Positions 1-10,634 of a stretch of DNA of 64,000 nucleotides are shown one piece after another (position 1 is the stretch's first letter; every line of letters starts with the position of its first letter). A program made the translations under genes and the position numbers. A model generated the notes under the pieces. The model was not told the DNA's origin and made no database searches. It saw only the letters and a program-made list of their open reading frames with translations. This DNA is from Roseovarius litorisediminis (GTDB lineage Bacteria > Pseudomonadota > Alphaproteobacteria > Rhodobacterales > Rhodobacteraceae): the NCBI RefSeq assembly GCF_900172295.1, contig NZ_FWFL01000001.1:62001-126000 (forward strand), read 5' to 3'.

Positions 1-36
1 ATTGATACCGATCACCTGCATGACTAATGTCGGGTC

Positions 37-534
37 ATGAGACAGTTTTTTGTGATGGTGCTCTGGATTGCAACCCTGCCGGGTTGTGCAATGCTGGAGA
101 GGGTGGCGGGGAAGCCGGCGCCCAAACTGCCGGAACCTGCACCGGTTGAAACCGCCGAATCGGGAGTTGTGCCGTCTGGTGCGGTACCGACAGGGGCCCG
201 AACGGTGGAGGAGTTTGACACCACCTCGGCGGCGCAGCGAGCGGCAGCGGTTGCCGGGGTTGAAAAGGCCGCAGGTGAGCGTGATCTGGGGCGGACCATT
301 GCGTCGCTTGGATCCCCGACCGAGCCCGGATTCTGGTTGAAAACACCACTGGTGTCCGAACCGGCGCGCGGACGGGTGGAGTATGCAGAAACCGGCAGCT
401 CCGTTGTGTTGGACCTGATCCCGATTGAGGGGGCAAAGACTGCTGGTAGTCGGATATCGCTGGCCGCGCTGCGTCTGTTGGGGGCACCGCTGACAGGCTT
501 GCCTGAAGTTCGGGTCTTTCTGGTTAAGAACTAA
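37..534 (+). CDS. Small envelope lipoprotein next to the GTA cluster
   Basis: A 165-residue protein with an N-terminal hydrophobic segment ending in a lipobox-like LPGC, so Cys17 is the probable lipidated residue and the mature protein would be membrane anchored. It continues with a Pro/Ala-rich linker (about residues 25-60) and a C-terminal half with no motif I recognise. Similar Rhodobacterales lipoproteins beside GTA clusters are often mislabelled galactarate dehydratase; nothing enzymatic is visible here. It lies 288 bp upstream of GTA g1 on the same strand, separated from it by a terminator. The function is unknown. The coding call is firm; the lipoprotein call is moderate because the lipobox is not a perfect L-A/S-G/A-C. 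Confidence 0.7.
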   Translation: MRQFFVMVLWIATLPGCAMLERVAGKPAPKLPEPAPVETAESGVVPSGAVPTGARTVEEFDTTSAAQRAAAVAGVEKAAGERDLGRTIASLGSPTEPGFWLKTPLVSEPARGRVEYAETGSSVVLDLIPIEGAKTAGSRISLAALRLLGAPLTGLPEVRVFLVKN

Positions 535-641
535 CAGAGCGCCGATAGCGGATGTGAGATGTGTACAATAGCTGCGCAGAACGGAAGCGAATTTCGGATT
601 TCTCTGATTTTAAGAAGTTAATAAAATGTAATAATAACTTA

Positions 642-670
642 CGGTTAGCGTGCGAATCTGCTGCGGTTAG
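642..670 (+). promoter_or_regulatory. Direct repeat CGGTTAG, 22-bp period, upstream of GTA genes
   Basis: The heptamer CGGTTAG occurs at 642-648 and again at 664-670, exactly 22 bp apart, about two helical turns. It lies at the edge of an AT-rich stretch (598-645) and just before a TTGACT hexamer (673-678) that could serve as a -35 element. This is the only obvious control region for the GTA cluster. Regulator binding is an inference. Confidence 0.35.
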
Positions 671-726
671 ACTTGACTTTGCGAACGGTGTCGTCTACAG
701 GTTGTGACATGCTGGAAGAGGTGCGC

Positions 727-762
727 AAACGACCCCGGGTGTGACCCCGGCGGTCGTTTTTT
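727..762 (+). terminator. Intrinsic terminator between lipoprotein gene and GTA g1
   Basis: ACGACC at 729-734 pairs with GGTCGT at 752-757, with inner CCGGG/CCCGG pairing, and is followed by six T residues. It either ends the upstream lipoprotein transcript or acts as an attenuator for the GTA leader, because the candidate -35 hexamer lies upstream of it. Confidence 0.75.
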
Positions 763-822
763 CATGTCTTCACGATGCGGAGGGGCCCGGAGAATGGCAA
801 TCGCATGAGGCAATGAGCACAC

Positions 823-1173
823 ATGGTTTTAATCACCCCCGATGAGGGGCCCACGGGCCTGACGACCTCGATCAACTCGCTTGAACGCCAGTTGGCGGAC
901 ATGAAGGAGGACCTTGAGGCGATCTACGACAAAATCAGAGCCGGTGACTTGAGTGAATTGAAAGAGGCGAACAAGGCCACAGCCGAAATCCGGCAGTGGT
1001 TGAAAATCGCGATTGAAGCGGAGGCGCAACTTGAAAAACGCAGAAAACACGAAAAAGGCATCGTCCACGACTTTGCCCTCGACTTTGACGATGCACGGGC
1101 TCAGATCGGGTGCCGCCTGGATCGTCTCAGAAGGGCAAGATGCCCAGGACGAGTTCCTCGATGCGCTGAGTGA
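823..1173 (+). CDS. GTA g1, small terminase subunit (TerS-like)
   Basis: A 116-residue, charged, helix-rich protein with a central coiled-coil-like stretch (SINSLERQLADMKEDLEAI, about residues 17-35) followed by the EKRRKHEKGIVHDFALD segment and an Arg-rich C terminus (CRLDRLRRAR), the pattern of GTA g1. In the RcGTA system g1 is the small terminase, which engages DNA for packaging with g2. Its 3' end overlaps g2 by about 80 bp in another frame, as in other GTA clusters. An earlier in-frame ATG at 805 is followed directly by a stop, so 823 is the first usable start. The gene appears intact although most of the structural cluster is gone. Confidence 0.75.
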   Translation: MVLITPDEGPTGLTTSINSLERQLADMKEDLEAIYDKIRAGDLSELKEANKATAEIRQWLKIAIEAEAQLEKRRKHEKGIVHDFALDFDDARAQIGCRLDRLRRARCPGRVPRCAE

Positions 1174-2443
1174 CGGCGAGTTGTTGGCACTGCCGTTTAT
1201 CTTTGAATTCTGGGCGCTGGAGCATCAGTTGCCACCCGAAGGCGACTGGCGCGCCTGGGTTGCGATGGGCGGGCGCGGTGCGGGCAAGACTCGCGCCGGT
1301 GCCGAATGGGTGCGCGCGCAGGTGGAGGGGGCAAAACCCCTGGATAAAGGGCGTTGCAAGCGGCTGGCGCTGGTAGGCGAGACGATTGACCAGGTGCGCG
1401 AGGTGATGATCTTTGGGGAAAGCGGTATCCTGGCCTGCTCGCCCCCCGACCGGCGACCGGAATGGCAGGCGACGCGCAAGCTGCTGATCTGGCCAAATGG
1501 GGCCACAGCACAGGCGTTTTCGGCGCATGATCCTGAGGGATTGCGCGGGCCACAATTTGACGGCGCCTGGGTTGATGAACTGGCAAAGTGGAAAAAGGCG
1601 CGCGAGACCTGGAACATGCTGCAGTTTGCTTTGCGGCTGGGCGAGGACCCAAGGGTATGCGTGACCACCACACCGCGCAACGTAGGCGTGCTTAAAGAAC
1701 TGCTGGAGGCTGACTCGACGGTGGTGACATCGGCACCAACTGAGGCAAACCGGGCGTTTCTGGCGGAAAGTTTCCTGGATGAGGTGCGCGCAAGGTATGC
1801 GGGCACGCGACTGGGGCGGCAGGAGCTGGACGGTATTCTGGTGGATGAGGCCGAGGGAGCGTTGTGGACGACTGCGGAGTTGGAAGGGGCCCGGGTAGAC
1901 AAGCTGCCAGAACTGGATCGGATTGTGGTTGCGGTGGATCCGCCGGTGAGTGGCAAGACCACATCGGATGAGTGCGGGATTGTGGTGGTAGGGGCCATAA
2001 CCCAGGGGCCGGTGCAGGATTGGCGGGCGTATGTTCTGGCCGATGCCAGTATTGGCGCAGCAAGCCCGGCAAGCTGGGCTAATGCCGCCATCAGGGCGAT
2101 GGAGCAGTACGGGGCCGACAAGCTGGTGGCCGAGGTCAATCAGGGCGGTGATCTGGTGGAACAGGTGATCCGGCAGGTTGATCCGATGGTGCCGTTCAAA
2201 AAGGTGCACGCCAGCCGGGGCAAGGTGGCCAGGGCCGAGCCGGTGGCGGCGCTATACGAGCAAGGGCGGGTGCATCATGTGCGCGGGCTGGGCGCGCTGG
2301 AGGACCAGATGTGCGCGATGACGGCACAGGGGTTTGAAGGCAAGGGCAGCCCGGATCGCGTGGATGCGCTTGTCTGGGCGCTGACCGAGCTGATTATCGA
2401 GCCTTCGGCCAAATGGCGCAGCCCGCAGATAAGGGCAATCTAA
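1091..2443 (+). CDS. GTA g2, large terminase (ATPase/nuclease)
   Basis: A full-length terminase large subunit of 450 residues when read from ATG 1091; an upstream in-frame start at 1013 would add a basic tail unlike the family. The ATPase domain shows Walker A GGRGAGKT near residue 60 and a Walker B region (FDGAWVDELAKW) near 155. The RNase H-like nuclease domain begins near residue 275 (VVAVDPPVSG) and has a late acidic motif SPDRVDALVWAL near 420. In GTAs this motor cuts and pumps random host DNA into capsids. It has no frameshift. Unusually, the gene is not followed by a portal gene: a rearranged non-coding stretch and a truncated g13 come next. Confidence 0.9.
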   Translation: MHGLRSGAAWIVSEGQDAQDEFLDALSDGELLALPFIFEFWALEHQLPPEGDWRAWVAMGGRGAGKTRAGAEWVRAQVEGAKPLDKGRCKRLALVGETIDQVREVMIFGESGILACSPPDRRPEWQATRKLLIWPNGATAQAFSAHDPEGLRGPQFDGAWVDELAKWKKARETWNMLQFALRLGEDPRVCVTTTPRNVGVLKELLEADSTVVTSAPTEANRAFLAESFLDEVRARYAGTRLGRQELDGILVDEAEGALWTTAELEGARVDKLPELDRIVVAVDPPVSGKTTSDECGIVVVGAITQGPVQDWRAYVLADASIGAASPASWANAAIRAMEQYGADKLVAEVNQGGDLVEQVIRQVDPMVPFKKVHASRGKVARAEPVAALYEQGRVHHVRGLGALEDQMCAMTAQGFEGKGSPDRVDALVWALTELIIEPSAKWRSPQIRAI

Positions 2444-2592
2444 AGCGTTAGAACGCGTTTTGCCGGCTGGTTGGGCCTGTCTTTATTTGGACAGATTTCC
2501 GCGGGTAGAAAGAAAACAGCCGGGCCCAAGGGCCCGGCGTTATCGTTTTCACGTAGGTGAAACTTCAGGCTGCCTTGCGCTTGCGCCGCACG
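2444..2592. other. Rearrangement junction replacing GTA g3-g12
   Basis: In a normal GTA cluster the portal gene g3 starts almost directly after g2. Here about 150 bp of non-GTA sequence follows the g2 stop. Read on the minus strand, the part nearest the truncated g13 gives an in-frame basic tail (VRRKRKAA, then TGA near 2570) followed by a strong terminator, the typical 3' end of an unrelated gene. The g13 homology then begins in mid-protein at about 2590. This supports a deletion or inversion that removed g3-g12 and the first part of g13. An assembly misjoin would look the same. Confidence 0.6.
2507..2538 (-). terminator. Minus-strand intrinsic terminator at the GTA deletion junction
   Basis: GCCGGGCCC (2519-2527) and GGGCCCGGC (2530-2538) form a very strong GC stem. 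On the minus strand it is followed by TGTTTTCTTTC, a proper T tract. No minus-strand gene remains to use it, apart from a short tail ending at a TGA near 2570, so it appears stranded from a gene that is no longer there. Confidence 0.7.
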
Positions 2593-3111
2593 GGTAAGGC
2601 GTTCGAGGCAGAACTGCGCGGTTTGACCGAGGCGCTTAACCAGCCTTTGGGCAGGGTTTACCAAAAATCGTGCAGTGCGGTGCTGGGCGACGCAGACTGC
2701 GGTTTTGATCTGACCACGCCCGGCTATGTGACCGAACCTGCTGTGGAAGTGGTCGAGGATCGGCGGGTTTTCCGATTTACTGCGCTGGAAGGTTTTGCTG
2801 AAGGTTGGTTTCGCCATGGGGTGTTGCGCGTGACCAGCGGGGCGGCCACCGGGTTGCAAGGTCTGATCAAACGCGACCGGGCAGAGGACACGGGTCGGGT
2901 GATCGAGCTGTGGCATCCGCTGCGCGCGCAGGTGCAGCCCGGAGACGGCCTGCGGATCCAGGCGGGGTGCAACAAACGCATGTCGACCTGCCAGTTCAAG
3001 TTTAACAATCTGGGCAACTTTCAAGGGTTTCCGGACATTCCTGGCGATGACTGGACCATCACCGACCCGCGTAAATCGGGTCGTCTGGATGGTGGGAGCC
3101 GCCGGACATGA
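2557..3111 (+). pseudogene. GTA g13 remnant (DUF2163 / Phage_BR0599 C-terminal part)
   Basis: The open frame matches only the C-terminal part of GTA g13, normally near 290 residues. The recognisable GTA segment runs from GKAFEAELRGLTEALNQP through a Cys-rich C-terminal domain (QKSCSAVLGDADCGFD, then CNKRMSTCQFKFNNLGNF) typical of phage BR0599-like proteins. The N-terminal DUF2163 portion is absent. The first residues (MKLQAALRLRR) come from the junction sequence, and the GTG start at 2557 has no convincing ribosome binding site. The stop overlaps the g14 start as ATGA, as in intact clusters. In RcGTA this protein is part of the distal tail. I call it a truncated, probably non-functional gene. 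Confidence 0.75.
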
Positions 3112-3551
3112 GCAATATCGGAGATCAGGTGGTTCTGGCTGCACGCGGCTGGATCGGCACGCCCTATCGCCACCAGGCATCCTGCAGGGGGGCCGGTACC
3201 GATTGTCTGGGCCTGTTGCGCGGTGTCTGGCGCGAGGTTCTGGGCGACGAACCCGAACGCCCACCGGCCTATTCGATGGACTGGTCCGAACCTGCCCGCG
3301 TCGAGGCGCTGTGGCAGGCGGCAAAGCGTCATCTGTTGACCAAGGCGCTGGAAGACGAGGCACCGGGGGATGTTTTGCTGTTCCGGATGCGCGACGGATC
3401 GGTGGCCAAGCACCTTGGACTGGCTGGAAAGACCGGCGCGCAGGCCACATTCATTCATGCATATTCGGGCCACGCGGTGGTGGAAAGCCCCCTGAGTGCC
3501 CCCTGGCGGCGGCGCGTCGTGGCCCGGTTCAAATTCCCTCAGGAGGGGTAG
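3108..3551 (+). CDS. GTA g14, NlpC/P60-type cell-wall peptidase
   Basis: A 147-residue NlpC/P60-fold protein. The catalytic Cys is in AGTDCLGL near residue 33, and the candidate His is in AKHLGL or FIHAYSG in the last third. In GTA particles this enzyme belongs to the tail tip and cuts peptidoglycan during delivery. The length is normal for the family and the frame is intact. The start overlaps the g13 remnant by 4 bp (ATGA), and g15 follows after 3 bp behind a strong ribosome binding site, so the g13-g14-g15 order is native. With no head or tail tube encoded here, it cannot act in particles unless missing parts lie elsewhere. Confidence 0.85.
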   Translation: MSNIGDQVVLAARGWIGTPYRHQASCRGAGTDCLGLLRGVWREVLGDEPERPPAYSMDWSEPARVEALWQAAKRHLLTKALEDEAPGDVLLFRMRDGSVAKHLGLAGKTGAQATFIHAYSGHAVVESPLSAPWRRRVVARFKFPQEG

Positions 3552-3554
3552 ATC

Positions 3555-6500
3555 ATGGCGACAGTAATTTTATCGGCGGCTGGAGCTGCTGCCGGTGGCG
3601 CAATCGGCGGCTCGGTTCTTGGGGTCTCTTCGGTTGCGCTTGGTCGATTTGCAGGGGCGCTGATCGGCCGGTCGATTGACCAGCGGCTGATGGGGCAGGG
3701 ATCAGAAGTGGTTGAGAGCGGCCGCGTCAGCCGCCTGCGCCTGACAGGTGCCGGCGAAGGGGATGCGGTCGCACAGGTTTTTGGGCGCATGCGTGTCGCG
3801 GGCCAGGTGATCTGGGCTACAGAGTTTCGCGAAGATGTAACCGTGACGGGTGGCAGCCGGGGCGGAGGTGGCAAAGGCAGGCCACCCAGGCCAGCCACGC
3901 CCACGCGGCACGAGTTCAGCTATTCGGTCAGTCTGGCGATTGCCTTGTGCGAGGGCGAGATTACCAATGTGGCCCGCGTCTGGGCTGATGGCACCGAAAT
4001 CTCCCGCGACAGCCTGAATATGCGCCTTTATCGCGGGACAAGGGACCAGCTGCCGGACCCCAAGATCGAGGCGGTTGAGGGGGCCGGCAATGTGCCCGCC
4101 TATCGCGGCACAGCCTACGTAGTGATCGAGGATCTGGAACTGGGCGCCTTTGGGAACCGGTTGCCGCAGCTGAGTTTTGAGGTCTGCCGCCCGTCGCAAT
4201 CCGGTCAACCTGGCGCCGCGCTGGACCCGGCCCATGGTATCCGGGGGGTCGCCATGCTACCCGGCAGCGGTGAATATGCGCTGGCCACCAGCCCGGTCCG
4301 AATGAATTTTGGTCTTGGGGCCGGTGGGTTGGCCAACGTGAATTCCCCCTCTGGCAAGGCGGATTTCACAACCTCTCTTGAGGCAATGACCGGTGAATTG
4401 CCGGGCTGTCGGTCGACCTCGCTGGTGGTCGGCTGGTTTGGTGACGATCTGCGCTGTGGCGAGTGCACCATTCGGCCTAAGCTGGAACAAAAGCAATTCG
4501 ACAGCTCGAACATGCCGTGGACGGTGTCAGGTCTCAGCCGGGCAAGCGCCGGGTTGGTGGCCCGAGACGCCACAGGCAAGCCAGTCTATGGCGGAACACC
4601 CACAGATGCTTCGGTGATAGAGGCCATTCTGGGCCTGCAGCAGGCGGGTCAGGAGGTAATGTATTATCCGTTCATCCTGATGGAGCAGGGGCCGGGCAAT
4701 GGCCTGCCGGACCCCTATAGTGATGCTGTAGATCAGCCGGTTCTGCCTTGGCGCGGGCGGATAACCACGTCAAAAGCGCCGGGTCAGCAGGGCAGCCCTG
4801 ACGGTACGACAGTTGCCGAGACAGAAGTGGCCGCATTTTTCGGCACCGCGCGTGCCGCGCATTTTTCTGTGACGCCGGTCAACGGGCCTTCGGCGCCCGC
4901 GTCCCAGCCGAACGGCCCGCTTGATCTGCTCAGCTTCGGGGGCCCAACCAAGCAGAGCCCGGTCAGCTATAGTGGTCCGGGGGAATGGAGCTACAGGCGG
5001 TTCATTCTGCATCAAGCTGCGCTATGCGCCGCCGTTGGGGGCGTTGAAAGCTTTTGTATAGGCTCGGAAATGCGCGGGTTGACGCAGGTGCGCGGGCCCG
5101 ACAACGGCTTTCCCGCAGTTGCGCAACTGATCGAGCTGGCCGCCGAGGTGCGCGCGCTGCTGGGGCCGGGTGTCAAGATCGGCTATGCTGCCGACTGGTC
5201 CGAGTATTTTGGCTATCAACCAGGAAATGGCGACCGGTTTTTCCATCTCGATCCTTTGTGGGCGGATGGCAATATCGATTTTATCGGCATCGACAATTAC
5301 ATGCCCCTGTCCGACTGGCGTGATTGCACGGACCACAAGGATGCGTATTGGGGGGCGATCTACGATCTGGACTATCTGCAATCGAATATCGAAGGCGGCG
5401 AAGGCTATGACTGGTTCTATCATTCCCCGCAGGCGCGCGCGGCGCAGATCCGCACACCAATCACCGATGCGGCCCATAACGAGCCATGGATCTGGCGGTT
5501 CAAGGATATCCGCAACTGGTGGCTGAACCCGCATCACGAAAGGGTTGGGGGTGAACGTAACCCCGTGCCAACCGCCTGGCTGCCGCAGTCAAAGGCGATC
5601 CGCTTTACCGAATTTGGCTGTGCTGCCGTGGATAAAGGTAGCAATCAACCCAACAAGTTTCTTGATCCCAAATCGTCTGAATCCAGCCTGCCGTATCATT
5701 CTGACGGTCAGCGGGACGATCTGATGCAGTTGCAATACCTTCGCGCGATGATCGGTTATTGGGGGGATCCCTCGAACAATCCGGTATCTGAAGAATATGG
5801 CGCGCCTATGGTGGATATGGAGCACGCCCATGTCTGGGCTTGGGATGCACGCCCTTTTCCGTATTTCCCCAACAATCGCGGGCTTTGGTCAGATGGTGAA
5901 AACTACGCTCGCGGACACTGGATAACAGGACGCACATCGGCACGGACGCTGGCATCGGTTGTGGACGAGATCAGCACGCGTGCTGGGCTGAGACATCTGG
6001 ATGTCAGCGCGCTGCACGGGCTTGTACGAGGCTATCTTGTGGACCAGGTCGGCGAGGCACGAGGCGCGTTGCAGCCGCTGATGCTGCGGTACGGGTTCGA
6101 CGCAGTCGAGCGTGACGGTGCTTTGCGTGTGAAATTGCGCGACGGAGAGGTCGACCATGTGATCGACCCCGACACATTGGTGCGCGATCCAGAACTGGCT
6201 GGCGTGATGGAGGAAACCCGCGGCAGTGCGGCTGAACTTGCAGGCCGGGTGCGGCTGCGGTTTGTCGAGGCGGATGGCGATTATGAGGTTATTGCCGAAG
6301 AAGCGATATTGCCGGATGACACAACACATGCGGTCTCAACCTCGGAAATGCCGCTGGCGATGACCCGCGCCGAGGGGCGCCAGACGGTTGAACGCTGGCT
6401 GTCCGAGGCACGGGTATCGACCGATACGTTGCGTCTCTCGCTGCCACCTTCACAGCTATCGGCAGGGGCCGGTGATGTGCTGGCTCTGCAAGAAAGCGGC

Positions 6501-7577
6501 GGCAAGGGCCTGTTCCGCATCGACCGGGTCGAGCAAATGGGCAACGCCCAGAGGATCGAGGCGGTGCGGGTTGAGCCGGAAAGCTATCGCCCGATCTTGA
6601 TTGACGAGATTGCCGCACGGCTGCGCCCGTTTAATGCGCCGGTGCCGGTGGCGCCACTGTTTCTGGACTTGCCGTTGATGACCGGTGAAGAGGTGCCGCA
6701 TGCGCCGCATGTGGCGGTGATGGCTGATCCATGGCCGGGATCGGCGGCGCTGTATTCATCGGACTCCGATGCTGACTACCGGCTTAACAGCATTTTGGCA
6801 GCCCGCTCGTCGGTGGGCATCACCGAAACGCCCTTGCATCCGGCGCGCAGTGGGCTGATTGACCGGGGGGAAGGGCTGATCGTGAAAATGCGCTTTGGCG
6901 AGTTGGAAAGCGTCGGCGACGATGCGCTTTTGTCGGGCGCCAACCTTTGTGCCATCGGGGATGGTATGCCGGGCGGGTGGGAGTTGTTTCAGTTCCGTGA
7001 TGCCGAGCTGGTCGACATCGATACCTATATCCTGCGCCACCGGTTGCGTGGACAGCTGGGCACTGATGCTGCAGGGGTATCTGCCTGGCCGCCCGGTTCA
7101 TTCGTGGTGCGGCTCGATGGCACGCCGCCGCAGATCGAACTGGCCGAGGCCCGGCGCGGCGTGGCGCGGCACTACCGGATCGGCCCGGCGGAACGCCCGG
7201 TTGACGACCCATCGTATCAACATGCGGTGTTGGCCTTTGACGGGATCGGTCTGCGCCCCTATGCGCCGGTGCACTTGCGTGCAAAGGAGCAGCCGGGCGG
7301 TGATCTGCGGGTCAGCTGGGTCCGGCGGACCCGTATCGGTGGCGACCGCTGGGACACACCCGAAGTGCCTTTGGGCGAGGAAAGCGAAAGCTATCTGGTC
7401 AGGGTCATGCAGGGCCCCGCAGTGATCCGACAGGAGATTGTCAGCACACCGGGCTGGGTTTATGGCGCGGTTGCGCGGGCGACTGATGCGCTCAGTGGGG
7501 AGTACCGGATTGAGGTGGCGCAAATTTCAGCCAGCTTCGGACCGGGCGTATTTGCAGGGTTGCCCCAAACCGTCTGA
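3555..7577 (+). CDS. GTA g15, tail hub/host-specificity megatron protein
   Basis: A 1340-residue protein that matches GTA g15 along its whole length. A glycine-rich hydrophobic N terminus (AAGAAAGGAIGGSVLG) comes first. The GTA TIM-barrel-like domain spans roughly residues 470-770 (IGYAADWSEYFGYQPGNGD, IDFIGIDNYMP), and a phage-tail_3-like region spans about 830-990. The protein is thought to form the baseplate hub and contact the recipient cell. Its start is fixed by AGGAGGGG six bases upstream of ATG 3555. There is no stop or frameshift, so either the deletion upstream is recent or the gene is still selected. It ends 7 bp from the convergent dksA-like gene. Confidence 0.9.
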   Translation: MATVILSAAGAAAGGAIGGSVLGVSSVALGRFAGALIGRSIDQRLMGQGSEVVESGRVSRLRLTGAGEGDAVAQVFGRMRVAGQVIWATEFREDVTVTGGSRGGGGKGRPPRPATPTRHEFSYSVSLAIALCEGEITNVARVWADGTEISRDSLNMRLYRGTRDQLPDPKIEAVEGAGNVPAYRGTAYVVIEDLELGAFGNRLPQLSFEVCRPSQSGQPGAALDPAHGIRGVAMLPGSGEYALATSPVRMNFGLGAGGLANVNSPSGKADFTTSLEAMTGELPGCRSTSLVVGWFGDDLRCGECTIRPKLEQKQFDSSNMPWTVSGLSRASAGLVARDATGKPVYGGTPTDASVIEAILGLQQAGQEVMYYPFILMEQGPGNGLPDPYSDAVDQPVLPWRGRITTSKAPGQQGSPDGTTVAETEVAAFFGTARAAHFSVTPVNGPSAPASQPNGPLDLLSFGGPTKQSPVSYSGPGEWSYRRFILHQAALCAAVGGVESFCIGSEMRGLTQVRGPDNGFPAVAQLIELAAEVRALLGPGVKIGYAADWSEYFGYQPGNGDRFFHLDPLWADGNIDFIGIDNYMPLSDWRDCTDHKDAYWGAIYDLDYLQSNIEGGEGYDWFYHSPQARAAQIRTPITDAAHNEPWIWRFKDIRNWWLNPHHERVGGERNPVPTAWLPQSKAIRFTEFGCAAVDKGSNQPNKFLDPKSSESSLPYHSDGQRDDLMQLQYLRAMIGYWGDPSNNPVSEEYGAPMVDMEHAHVWAWDARPFPYFPNNRGLWSDGENYARGHWITGRTSARTLASVVDEISTRAGLRHLDVSALHGLVRGYLVDQVGEARGALQPLMLRYGFDAVERDGALRVKLRDGEVDHVIDPDTLVRDPELAGVMEETRGSAAELAGRVRLRFVEADGDYEVIAEEAILPDDTTHAVSTSEMPLAMTRAEGRQTVERWLSEARVSTDTLRLSLPPSQLSAGAGDVLALQESGGKGLFRIDRVEQMGNAQRIEAVRVEPESYRPILIDEIAARLRPFNAPVPVAPLFLDLPLMTGEEVPHAPHVAVMADPWPGSAALYSSDSDADYRLNSILAARSSVGITETPLHPARSGLIDRGEGLIVKMRFGELESVGDDALLSGANLCAIGDGMPGGWELFQFRDAELVDIDTYILRHRLRGQLGTDAAGVSAWPPGSFVVRLDGTPPQIELAEARRGVARHYRIGPAERPVDDPSYQHAVLAFDGIGLRPYAPVHLRAKEQPGGDLRVSWVRRTRIGGDRWDTPEVPLGEESESYLVRVMQGPAVIRQEIVSTPGWVYGAVARATDALSGEYRIEVAQISASFGPGVFAGLPQTV

Positions 7578-7583
7578 AGCACC

Positions 7584-7922
7584 TTAACCGCGCGCGCACT
7601 GAATGCACTTGGCGGCGGCTGGATCAAGTTCCAGTCGCCGCGTGGCAATGTCATCGCCGCAATCCTCGCAATAGCCATACTCGCCGTCTTCAAGCCGTGC
7701 CAATGCCGCCGTCAGACGGGTTTTCTGGGCCTGACGCCGGGCGTGGTTGGCCTTGGCCATCGCCTGATTCTGCAGGGCGTCCATTCGGCTCAGCCGGCCC
7801 ACTGCCTGTTGATCCAGTTGCACCGTCGCCTGTCCAGCCTGTCCTAGTGCGTCCTCGTTTTCCAGTTCCTGCATCCGCGCAAGGATGATTTCGCGGAATT
7901 TGGCCAGTTCGGAGTCATTCAT
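7584..7922 (-). CDS. DksA/TraR-family zinc-finger protein
   Basis: A protein of about 112 residues with an N-terminal helical coiled-coil region and a C-terminal C4 zinc finger: CEDCGDD, then CIQCARG 17 residues on. DksA/TraR proteins bind the RNA polymerase secondary channel and tune promoters with ppGpp. I chose the ATG at 7922 (MNDSELAKF) because GGAG lies nine bases upstream of it, whereas earlier in-frame ATGs have no spacing for it. It is divergent from cysE over 84 bp. It is shorter than E. coli DksA (151 residues), so it is one of the small DksA-like paralogues common in alphaproteobacteria. Confidence 0.8.
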   Translation of the reverse strand: MNDSELAKFREIILARMQELENEDALGQAGQATVQLDQQAVGRLSRMDALQNQAMAKANHARRQAQKTRLTAALARLEDGEYGYCEDCGDDIATRRLELDPAAAKCIQCARG

Positions 7923-8006
7923 ATTCATTATCTCCGTCATCACGGCTTTGCATTTTACCATCCGTGCCTATCTGGTATAGTCAAGCACAGTGGAAGGAGC
8001 ATGCAA

Positions 8007-8813
8007 ATGGCTGAGACACGTAAAAAATTGGCCGAGCTTGACCCGGTCTGGGGGCGCATTCGGGCCGAGGCCGAGGATGCCATCGCCCACGAGCCGCTGT
8101 TGGGTGGCGTAATTCACTCGTCAATTCTGCACCACAGAAGTATCGAAACCGCGCTGGCCTACCGGATTTCGCTGAAACTGGCTTCAAGCGAGATGCCTGA
8201 ACAAATTCTGCGCGAAATCTGCGATGAGGCTTTCAACGCCTCACCCGATATTGCGATGTCGGCGCGGGCCGACATTGTTGCCGTCAATGACCGTGACCCG
8301 GCCTGTGACCGGTTCATTCAGCCGCTGCTGTTCTTCAAGGGGTTCCAGGCGATTCAGGCCTATCGCGTATCGCACTGGCTGTGGACAGAGGGCCGCCGCG
8401 ACATGGCGCGTTTTGTTCAAATGCGTTGCTCGGAAGTGTTCGGCGTGGATATCCACCCCGGTGCTGTCATCGGCAAGGGCATTATGATCGACCATGCCCA
8501 TTCCATCGTTATTGGTGAAACCGCTGTGGTTGGCGATAATGTGTCGATGCTGCACTCGGTCACCCTTGGCGGGACCGGTAAGGAAGAAGAGGACCGTCAC
8601 CCTAAGATCGGCAGCGGTGTTTTGATCGGGGCAGGGGCCAAGGTGCTGGGCAATATCAAGGTTGGCAATTGCAGCCGTGTCGCGGCCGGTTCCGTGGTGC
8701 TGGAAGAAGTGCCGCCGTGCAAGACTGTCGCCGGTGTGCCTGCGCGAATTGTGGGCGAGGCCGGTTGCGATCAGCCTTCTGTGGCGATGGATCAGTTATT
8801 GGGCGTGCGCTGA
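8007..8813 (+). CDS. cysE: Serine O-acetyltransferase
   Basis: CysE transfers acetyl from acetyl-CoA to L-serine, the committed step towards cysteine. The 268-residue protein has the N-terminal helical domain (residues 1-140) with DPVWGRIRAEAEDAIAHEP and HHRSIETALAYRI, then a left-handed beta-helix hexapeptide region. Active-site sequences IDHAHSIVIGET and LHSVTLGGTGK are present. GGAG lies seven bases upstream of ATG 8007, while the ATG at 8001 would touch it. The window also contains a cysteine-leader-controlled cysS, so two cysteine-related loci are present, although they are not linked. The C-terminal tail resembles the part that binds CysK or mediates feedback inhibition in other species. 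Confidence 0.93.
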   Translation: MAETRKKLAELDPVWGRIRAEAEDAIAHEPLLGGVIHSSILHHRSIETALAYRISLKLASSEMPEQILREICDEAFNASPDIAMSARADIVAVNDRDPACDRFIQPLLFFKGFQAIQAYRVSHWLWTEGRRDMARFVQMRCSEVFGVDIHPGAVIGKGIMIDHAHSIVIGETAVVGDNVSMLHSVTLGGTGKEEEDRHPKIGSGVLIGAGAKVLGNIKVGNCSRVAAGSVVLEEVPPCKTVAGVPARIVGEAGCDQPSVAMDQLLGVR

Positions 8814-8930
8814 ACTTGTAACCAATTATAAGACAAGGGCTTCTGGCTGGTTTTTGCTCTGGCGGCACTGGCCGGTGGTTCTGTGCCGAGGCTACACTGG
8901 GTCTGGAATTGGCAGCACCGATTTGCGACT

Positions 8931-10634
8931 TCAGTTCGAAGCCATGGCCTGTCTGGACTGCAGCACCCGGCACGGCGCGAACAGGTCAAGATTGCCTGTG
9001 CGCTCTGTGGTCTCGATGTTCAGCATCCCAAGTACCGAGTGGAAAAAGTTGTCGTGTGTAACGGTCTTATCTTCACTGTTTTCAACGCAGTTATAATCGA
9101 GTGTCATGTCGCTTCTGAAGTTGTCCGACATCCACAATAGCATCGGCACGCGTGTTTGTTCCTCGGGGGCGGCCCAATAGGGGGCAGCATGAAGATACAA
9201 GTTGTTTTCTCCAAGAGATTCTCCGTGATCAGACACATAGATCAATGACGTACTGAGGTTTGATAGGGTCTCGAGATACTTGATCGTATTTGCCAGTTGC
9301 AGGTCGGTATAGGCAACTGCATTGTCATAGGCATTAACGACTTCCCCGGGGGGGCAATTTGCCAGATCTGCATCTCTGCAATCGGGAAGGAATTTGGCAA
9401 ATTCTGTTGGGTAGCGCTCAAAATAGGCCGGTCCATGATTGCCGATCTGATGCATCACGATAACCGTGTCATGAGTGATCGTTTCTGCCTTTTGTTGCAG
9501 CAGTTTCAATAGAATACCGTCGTTGCACTCTCCATTTGAGCAGAATTCTGGATCGTTTGCCCGGTTATAGTTTGAATAGGGGACGCGCTTTGCCACGCCC
9601 ATATCGCCGGTATTTGCATCCCACCACTCGACGTCGTAACCGGCGCGCACAAGCAAGTCCAAAAGGTTTTCGGTTGCAACGGCTTTTTCAAAGGTGAAAT
9701 CCGACCGGTTGTATTTTGAGAACATGCAGGGGATGGACACGGAAGTGGAGGTTCCACAGGTCTCGACACCCGCAAAGGACAGAACATTCAGTTTGGCAAG
9801 CTCAGGCGTCGTGTTGCGCTTATAGCCGCTAAGCCCCCAGTTCTGGTCGCGCAGGGTTTCGCCGATAACCAAAAGGGTCAGAACCGGGTGTTTGGCGTGT
9901 GCCACGAGTTCGCCCTTGCGAGCATCCAGGCCGATCTGCTGAAACTCCAGCGATTGAGCACGCCACATCATCTGGGCGTATTGGATGGCGCTGTTAACCG
10001 GGCCAGCTGGGTGCAGTATTTTTCTCAGTCCAGGTGACTTCTTCAGCGAGAAACTATAAGTTTGATAGTTGCTATAGGCGACACCGAAAAACAATAACCC
10101 GCACACAAGCAGCAACAGGTTGTGCCGCAATGCCGATTTCAGAAATGGCGGGTGCGATACCCGAACCAGAAGCACGACCAGCGACGGGATAACCGCGAAG
10201 GCAACCATGTACCGGATATAAGACAGGGTGAACAGGTTTTTGGATTCGTTCGCAGTAGTTCCCAGGATATTCTGGATCATCTCTCGGTCAATAACGACGC
10301 CCATGTTCTCGTGAAAATACGAGGCCCCCGCAGCTATTAAGATATTCGCGATAAGGACGGGTTTTAGCAGCCAGCGGTTGGTAAACAGCAGAATATACGC
10401 CATGCTCAATCCCCAGATGCCGACGACGAAGAGCAAAAAGAGACTGGGCTGGGATTTCAGCAATCCGTAGGACCGCGACCAAAAAGAAAAATTGTAGGCC
10501 GACAATAGCCATAGATTGACAAAAACGACCAACAACAACCCAGAAATAGCCGGGCGTGACCGCCACATCTCGCTGAAAGATGCTGGCGTGTTTGGTGTTT
10601 GAGTTGAAATACCGGGTGCTGCAGGTTTTTGCAT
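8931..10634 (-). CDS. eptA: EptA-type lipid A phosphoethanolamine transferase
   Basis: A 567-residue inner-membrane protein. About five transmembrane helices occupy residues 28-185, followed by a periplasmic alkaline-phosphatase/sulfatase-fold domain. Conserved metal and catalytic features are visible: GETLRDQNWG (Glu259), CGTSTSVSIPCMFS with the presumed nucleophile Thr295, and DHGESLGE with nearby His residues in the last quarter. The family moves phosphoethanolamine from phosphatidylethanolamine onto lipid A, lowering surface negative charge and sensitivity to cationic peptides. The gene stands alone, convergent with cysE, with a weak ribosome binding site. The exact acceptor (lipid A or another glycan) cannot be told from sequence. 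Confidence 0.85.
   Translation of the reverse strand: MQKPAAPGISTQTPNTPASFSEMWRSRPAISGLLLVVFVNLWLLSAYNFSFWSRSYGLLKSQPSLFLLFVVGIWGLSMAYILLFTNRWLLKPVLIANILIAAGASYFHENMGVVIDREMIQNILGTTANESKNLFTLSYIRYMVAFAVIPSLVVLLVRVSHPPFLKSALRHNLLLLVCGLLFFGVAYSNYQTYSFSLKKSPGLRKILHPAGPVNSAIQYAQMMWRAQSLEFQQIGLDARKGELVAHAKHPVLTLLVIGETLRDQNWGLSGYKRNTTPELAKLNVLSFAGVETCGTSTSVSIPCMFSKYNRSDFTFEKAVATENLLDLLVRAGYDVEWWDANTGDMGVAKRVPYSNYNRANDPEFCSNGECNDGILLKLLQQKAETITHDTVIVMHQIGNHGPAYFERYPTEFAKFLPDCRDADLANCPPGEVVNAYDNAVAYTDLQLANTIKYLETLSNLSTSLIYVSDHGESLGENNLYLHAAPYWAAPEEQTRVPMLLWMSDNFRSDMTLDYNCVENSEDKTVTHDNFFHSVLGMLNIETTERTGNLDLFAPCRVLQSRQAMASN

Follow-up and report, generated by a model that had tools for sequence, protein, structure and literature searches.

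Among described systems, the closest to the locus considered here is the RcGTA-like head-tail cluster of Rhodobacterales (rhodogtaviriformids; R. capsulatus GTA). GTA pseudogenisation and complete loss in several lineages, which are seen as cheaters, were reported by Kogay and Zhaxybayeva (2024; PMC10883770); the available text of that study discards incomplete clusters, sets completeness at 14 of 17 head-tail genes and, unlike the account that can be given of the window and its relatives, contains neither deletion end points nor a recurrent TerL::g15 join. In the model of Redfield and Soucy (2018; PMC6209664), as set out in the part of it that is available, GTA genes have to hold out against random mutations and deletions, GTA-minus cells arise, and defective alleles are not spread by the GTA, such cells making no particles.

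A GTA cluster reduced to its two ends

The window, which is the whole stretch of 64,000 nucleotides analysed, represents bases 62001–126000 of a 709-kb contig in the 4.0-Mb genome of Roseovarius litorisediminis (G000; 39 contigs, rated 100% complete). An RcGTA-like cluster is located at 823–7577, in which g1, g2, the C-terminal part of g13, g14 and g15 are kept and all frames are open; it is listed below with its junction and right flank.

823–1173, plus strand: g1 homologue (small terminase position), open ORF
1094–2443, plus strand: g2, large terminase TerL, 449 aa, intact (PF03237, 4.8e-29; PF17289, 6.6e-20)
2444–2580, no strand assigned: junction spacer, 137 bp, with only short chance-level matches in congeners and none in plasmids
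2519–2538, no strand assigned: terminator-like hairpin with 8 G-C pairs, scored on both strands
2581–3111, plus strand: g13', C-terminal part of g13, from profile matches and alignment with intact g13
3108–3551, plus strand: g14, NlpC/P60 peptidase (NLPC_P60), 147 aa, intact (PF00877, 2.2e-05)
3555–7577, plus strand: g15, tail hub protein, 1340 aa, intact (PF13547, PF13550, PF23666)
7584–7961, minus strand: DksA/TraR zinc-finger gene, right flank (PF01258), in the same position in many congener loci
8001–8813, plus strand: cysE, right flank (PF06426, PF00132)

The ordered ends g1-g2 and g13-g14-g15, the GTA-type g15, the shared flanks and the family-level matches indicate descent from an RcGTA-like GTA locus. 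The counterparts of g1 in two congener loci (L006 and L008) are 84–85% identical and lie immediately 5' of g2, and the TerL proteins of the same loci share 87% identity with g2. The g15 product contains the GTA_TIM, Phage-tail_3 and Rcc01698_C domains, with residues 1–1335 matching the solved GTA chain 6tba_8A, and cysE stands alongside the cluster as it does in intact congeners and at deleted clusters of relatives. No integrase was noticed among the ORFs of 1–9000, where the profile scan covered eight proteins. The initial annotation had described TerL, the peptidase and the 1340-residue hub protein as free of stops and frameshifts, and the frames of g2, g14 and g15 are indeed all open. Unlike the RcGTA-like cluster, the locus lacks the portal, protease, capsid, tail tube and tape measure genes (g3-g12) of a functional GTA, together with the first part of g13, and has a spacer with a terminator-like hairpin instead; with g1, g2, part of g13, g14 and g15 only, it falls short of the 14 of 17 head-tail genes that the available text of PMC10883770 asks for.

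The description of g1-g2 as fused to g13' has to be corrected, since g2 ends at 2443 with its own stop kept and the 137-bp spacer with its hairpin separates the two genes. Homology to g13 begins (TTGCGCCGC) at 2581, inside an open frame that starts at GTG 2557; read from this GTG, the match to PF09931 does not begin until profile position 118 of 160 and is followed by the whole of PF09356. A terminator search in the spacer gave two hits versus 0.5 ± 0.8 in shuffles, and the minus strand of 2505–2575 folds at −26.3 kcal/mol (z −2.63). The join DNA has a single occurrence in its own genome and no match longer than 35 bp in the other genomes of the genus (84 genomes searched), while no source of the spacer was found in its own genome besides itself, in the 83 congeners beyond chance-level pieces, or in plasmids.

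In several intact congeners the gap between g2 and g3 is filled by extra DNA with minus-strand genes, three of which are identified as a DMSP lyase (PF16867), a formate/nitrite transporter (PF01226) and a solute-binding protein (PF00497); in intact Roseovarius GTA clusters this gap is a cargo site for minus-strand genes. DMSP lyase-like genes are found there in L070, L071, L076, L082 and L024 (the PF16867 profile was run on L070 only), and L085 and L020 carry other cargo. Since intact congeners hold minus-strand genes in this gap, the spacer is read as what is left of one of them, and from its position, orientation and hairpin it may be the 3' tail of a reversed cargo gene.

The preferred reading, to which a probability of roughly 0.85 is given, is that a single deletion, specific to this lineage and about 7.4 kb or more in length, disabled an RcGTA-like cluster. 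This event would have taken out g3-g12 plus the first part of g13, with one end probably inside the gap between g2 and g3, where it would have cut into a reversed cargo gene at its 3' end, and the other at 2581 in g13; the stop of g2 would have been retained, and the terminator would now part g1-g2 from g13'-g14-g15.

Genome-wide absence of g3-g12 and state of the leftover genes

The g3-g13 query of 7454 bp from L006, an intact congener locus with 7455 bp between the end of g2 and the homologous g13 position, gives only chance-level matches in the whole 4.0-Mb genome (best E 0.088), and a profile search of the whole genome for DUF2460 (g12) gives zero matches. One Phage_portal and one Phage_capsid are present genome-wide, both on contig 13, in a stretch shared with a Phage_integrase gene and with their own, different terminase; the sole portal and capsid of the genome are those of an integrated prophage, unrelated to the GTA. 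This prophage (L002, 78000–95000) comprises integrase, TerL, portal, protease-capsid and tail genes. As a positive control, g3, g5 and g12 of L006 match the three Pfam models at 2.4e-88, 3.3e-87 and 1.7e-86, so the genome searches could have detected such genes. The absence of g3-g12 claimed in the initial annotation extends from the locus to the entire genome, and a second intact GTA locus, which would have contradicted it, was looked for genome-wide and not found. With g3-g12 gone and no second GTA locus, the locus is predicted to be incapable of making a particle, as had been proposed: assembly would be impossible without portal, protease, capsid, tail tube and tape measure.

On the strength of the whole-genome searches, both misassembly and a transfer of g3-g12 to another site are rejected. 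The view that the cluster is intact and that g3-g12 were dropped by the assembler can appeal to the 39 contigs and to a join known from the assembly alone, but the join, at about 64.4 kb, lies far inside the 709-kb contig and includes 137 bp absent from intact relatives, and none of the contigs yields g3-g12 in an assembly whose completeness is rated at 100%, which makes an assembly error very improbable. A split cluster, in which g3-g12 would have been relocated much as g3 looks to have been parted from g1-g2 in some congeners, has possible precedents in 13 congener loci that hold g13-g15 and show no g2 over 12 kb or more of sequence upstream (L015, L017, L018, L021, L022, L023, L039, L040, L060, L062, L066, L068, L080), where the division may fall between g2 and g3, and in the unrelated genes that precede g3 in L018; however, g3-g12 DNA and the GTA portal, capsid and DUF2460 are all absent from this genome, and relocation is extremely improbable.

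Selection on the leftover genes, for which the initial annotation had proposed dN/dS on g2, g14 and g15, was compared by counting changed codons (N/S) on the window branch versus the sister branch (sister L008, outgroup L010), such branch averages being unable to date the deletion. The values are 4/16 vs 4/17 for the first part of g2, 12/41 vs 12/30 for the rest of g2, 2/23 vs 5/17 for g14, 24/103 vs 26/89 for the first half of g15 and 17/83 vs 39/58 for its second half. For g13' the window branch is higher under two sister-outgroup combinations (8/19 vs 3/19; 6/20 vs 3/22) and lower under two others (4/23 vs 5/21; 5/25 vs 6/21). Pairwise dN/dS between the window and L008 is 0.080 for the N part of TerL and 0.144 for the C part of g15, compared with 0.100 and 0.144 between L008 and L014; the dS of g15 to the nearest congeners is above 1. 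In g2, g14 and g15 the non-synonymous share is not raised on the window branch, with no sign of relaxed selection. The window genome also retains one GTA holin (PF11351, GTA_holin_3TM; C29:628554) and one DUF6456 gene (PF20057, GafA-type; C29:424924), the latter presumably gafA; these families occur in 81 and 79, respectively, of the 84 genomes of the genus, and both are present in 12 other reduced genomes (G001, G020, G060, G083 and eight fused).

Either the loss is young or the leftover genes are still useful, and a young loss is the favoured reading. The retention of intact DUF6456, holin, g1, g2, g14 and g15 would fit a young GTA-minus lineage, and the recent deletion suggested from the outset agrees with the open frames, with the unraised non-synonymous share and with the continued presence of PF20057 and PF11351. 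Retention of g1, g2, g14 and g15 for another role, such as cell-wall cleavage or surface binding by g14-g15, is the less likely course: their frames are open over 1936 codons with branch N/S as low as in sister lineages, and relatives carry quite another remnant, made up of g1 and a TerL::g15 chimera, which is unbroken in 29 of 31 loci and whose N/S matches the low values of intact clusters, but open frames and low N/S are equally expected from a young deletion, a terminator-like hairpin now lies between g2 and g13', and the join is unique to the window genome. As for the chimera, supposed fused-only clades interleave with intact species, and its low N/S may mean recent deletions. The GTA loss in the window is lineage-specific and probably recent, and loss of this kind has already been described. 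As in the 'cheater' lineages in the available text of PMC10883770, the structural cluster of the window has been disabled in a single lineage, relatives still have theirs, and unlinked GTA-type genes remain. The lineage may be a 'cheater' as Kogay and Zhaxybayeva (2024) use the word; a GTA-minus cheater would make no particles but could still take up DNA from those of others.

The TerL::g15 join in related lineages

Among 80 loci from 83 congeners (the loci of 3 congeners being left out), at least 42 keep g2, then 7.4–8.9 kb, then g13-g15 (40 by script, plus L042 and L088, in which the g2 match is in two pieces). Eight congeners have only g1 and a TerL::g15 chimera, and four have g15 remnants only; the latter are reduced to short g15 ends in L035 and L037 (G020, G083), L034 (G001) and L036 (G060), the last of which also has a whole g1-g2. 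Of the remaining loci, some run off the end of a contig, L041 has a disrupted g15, and others show no g2 in the stretch. Extra g15 homologues of about 40–47% identity, which probably sit in GTA-like prophages, accompany the normal GTA copy in G042, G043, G008, G015, G050, G052, G064, G079 and others.

One join, from TerL Asp161 to g15 Glu686 (window numbering), is shared by 31 distinct Rhodobacteraceae loci:

Fused loci (31): L026–L033, L114, L102–L118 (12 loci), L122–L125, L131, L134, L135, L137, L139, L166

In the eight congeners, a single open frame leads from TerL (...FDGAWVDE) directly into g15 (...YGCAAVDKGTNQPNKF). The chimera reads through the join as far as the end region of g15 in 29 of the 31 loci (28 of 30 plus L166), those of L104 and L139 being broken; L115 diverges from the other fused loci near its end, and a g1-like frame is located 5' of the chimera in 29 of 29 fused loci tested. 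The Glu codon at the join is GAA in 16/20 fused loci, 37/49 intact g15 genes and 10/42 intact TerL genes; since the fused codon resembles intact g15 and not intact TerL, the exchange is placed before or within its GA.

A scan of the back-translated join across 84,980 species gave 19 matches, 17 of them real, namely 5 Roseovarius (4 already among the congeners) and 12 from other lineages (among them records for Sulfitobacter, Rhodobacter, Brevirhabdus and Planktotalea); these were found via the join itself, and the two following samples were not chosen by it. Short open frames in 198 family genomes (about one per genus) led to 19 loci, at least 9 with the identical join, and in the genus of G187 the join is present in 4 and absent from 14 of the 18 genomes with a match. 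Other deletions outside Roseovarius are seen in L130, where g15 resumes at residue 536 after a complete g2, and in L138, where TerL 1–352 leads into g15 at 294. The GTA is often lost in Roseovarius, and the process behind the TerL::g15 deletion could be supposed to have acted on the window locus too, but the ends differ, the window keeping whole g2 and g15 with its right end in g13, and a common process is scarcely credible; the window genome shows that unrelated deletions occur as well.

The g15 tree (124 rows, 28 fused) contains at least 19 changes of state, 15 forced by well supported branches, and the TerL tree, which is shorter and has 93 rows (29 fused), contains at least 17, of which 5 are forced, both trees having been built by a quick method with SH-aLRT support only. 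In the tree of the G187 genus there are 6 changes, 4 of them forced, and a single change is found in 0 of 200 bootstrap trees. Fused rows adjoin intact sisters (for instance L032/L094 and L029/L078), and the trees as reconstructed require many separate changes of state. The cleanest pair consists of G487, which is fused (single contig of 4,225,158 bases), and the intact G486, where gap-free flanks of 3671 bp on the left (98.2% identical) and 4635 bp on the right (97.3%) enclose 10,997 bp missing from G487, with 2 bp shared at the join.

Several routes by which one fused allele might have spread were tried and rejected. Horizontal transfer is opposed by both arms grouping with intact species of their own lineage. 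A donor tract at the join finds no support in the synonymous differences between fused and nearest intact loci (21/70 inner vs 137/612 outside, p = 0.18; intact-intact control, 51/142 codons inner vs 392/1184 outside); clustering of differences near the join is not upheld overall, L032 alone being suggestive (6/11 vs 18/100), and in the pair L190/L189 the nearest differences lie 16 bp to the left and 50 bp to the right of the join. Spread by the GTA itself is rejected on the argument given in the available part of PMC6209664, by which GTA-minus cells make no particles and thus would not carry the relatives' deletion. An ancestral fused state with regain of the intact one is contradicted by the agreement of middle and arm distances in 58 intact loci (r 0.72–0.89). 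On plasmids, phages and viral contigs, no match among those listed spans both arms (one list holding 25 of 146 records), and three viral pattern matches to the join carry neither TerL nor g15.

Cause and significance of the recurrent deletion

The sequence shared at the join measures 2–8 bp, and 2–4 bp in 51 of 60 intact loci, while six intact clusters offer from 11,684 to 184,339 other in-frame TerL-g15 joins each with at least equal shared sequence. The N/S of the fused branch is 90/303 vs 68/289 for the intact sister (p = 0.21). In fused pairs from other genera it is 50/176 vs 58/191 for the TerL part (p = 0.83) and 198/539 vs 334/657 for the g15 part, lower in the fused loci (p = 0.003), a test weakened by the interleaving with intact species of L111 and L108, which had been taken as a fused-only clade. 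The predicted structure of the chimera (14 sequences) has a mean pLDDT of 55, with residues 154–217 at the join below 50, and this model from a 14-sequence alignment lends no support to an ordered composite fold.

A hotspot explains the exactness of the join and the very recent case of G487/G486, and selection for the chimera explains the open frames and the low N/S, a ratio that recent deletions could give as well; the hotspot is somewhat ahead. By analogy with serine or bridge-RNA-type recombinases, the shared GA would be the core of a site-bound recombination. That the GTA has been repeatedly switched off by a base-precise deletion of about 11–12.5 kb, which joins the end of the TerL Walker B motif (Asp161) in frame to g15 Glu686 with 2–8 bp shared and arises de novo at the same base pair in successive lineages, through site-bound recombination or strong selection for the chimera, is a proposal for which the case is evenly balanced. 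If true, GTA-minus lineages would be products of a defined switch and not of random decay.

No report of the recurrent TerL::g15 join was found in the open-licence literature, including the available text of PMC10883770, PMC6209664, PMC9836097, PMC6821227 and PMC9662315. The model of PMC6209664, in its available part, assumes random loss, in contrast to the identical join of the relatives, and the recurrent deletion may be more than a variant of known GTA loss.

These losses bear on the open question of how costly, group-level GTA production persists against non-producers. The window provides one cleanly mapped GTA loss whose remaining genes are still fresh, and in the family loss is non-random, the same base pair being used in many lineages. 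If a hotspot is responsible, the rate at which non-producers originate would be measurable by simple PCR; if selection is responsible, the chimera would be a new domesticated protein, half packaging motor and half tail hub.
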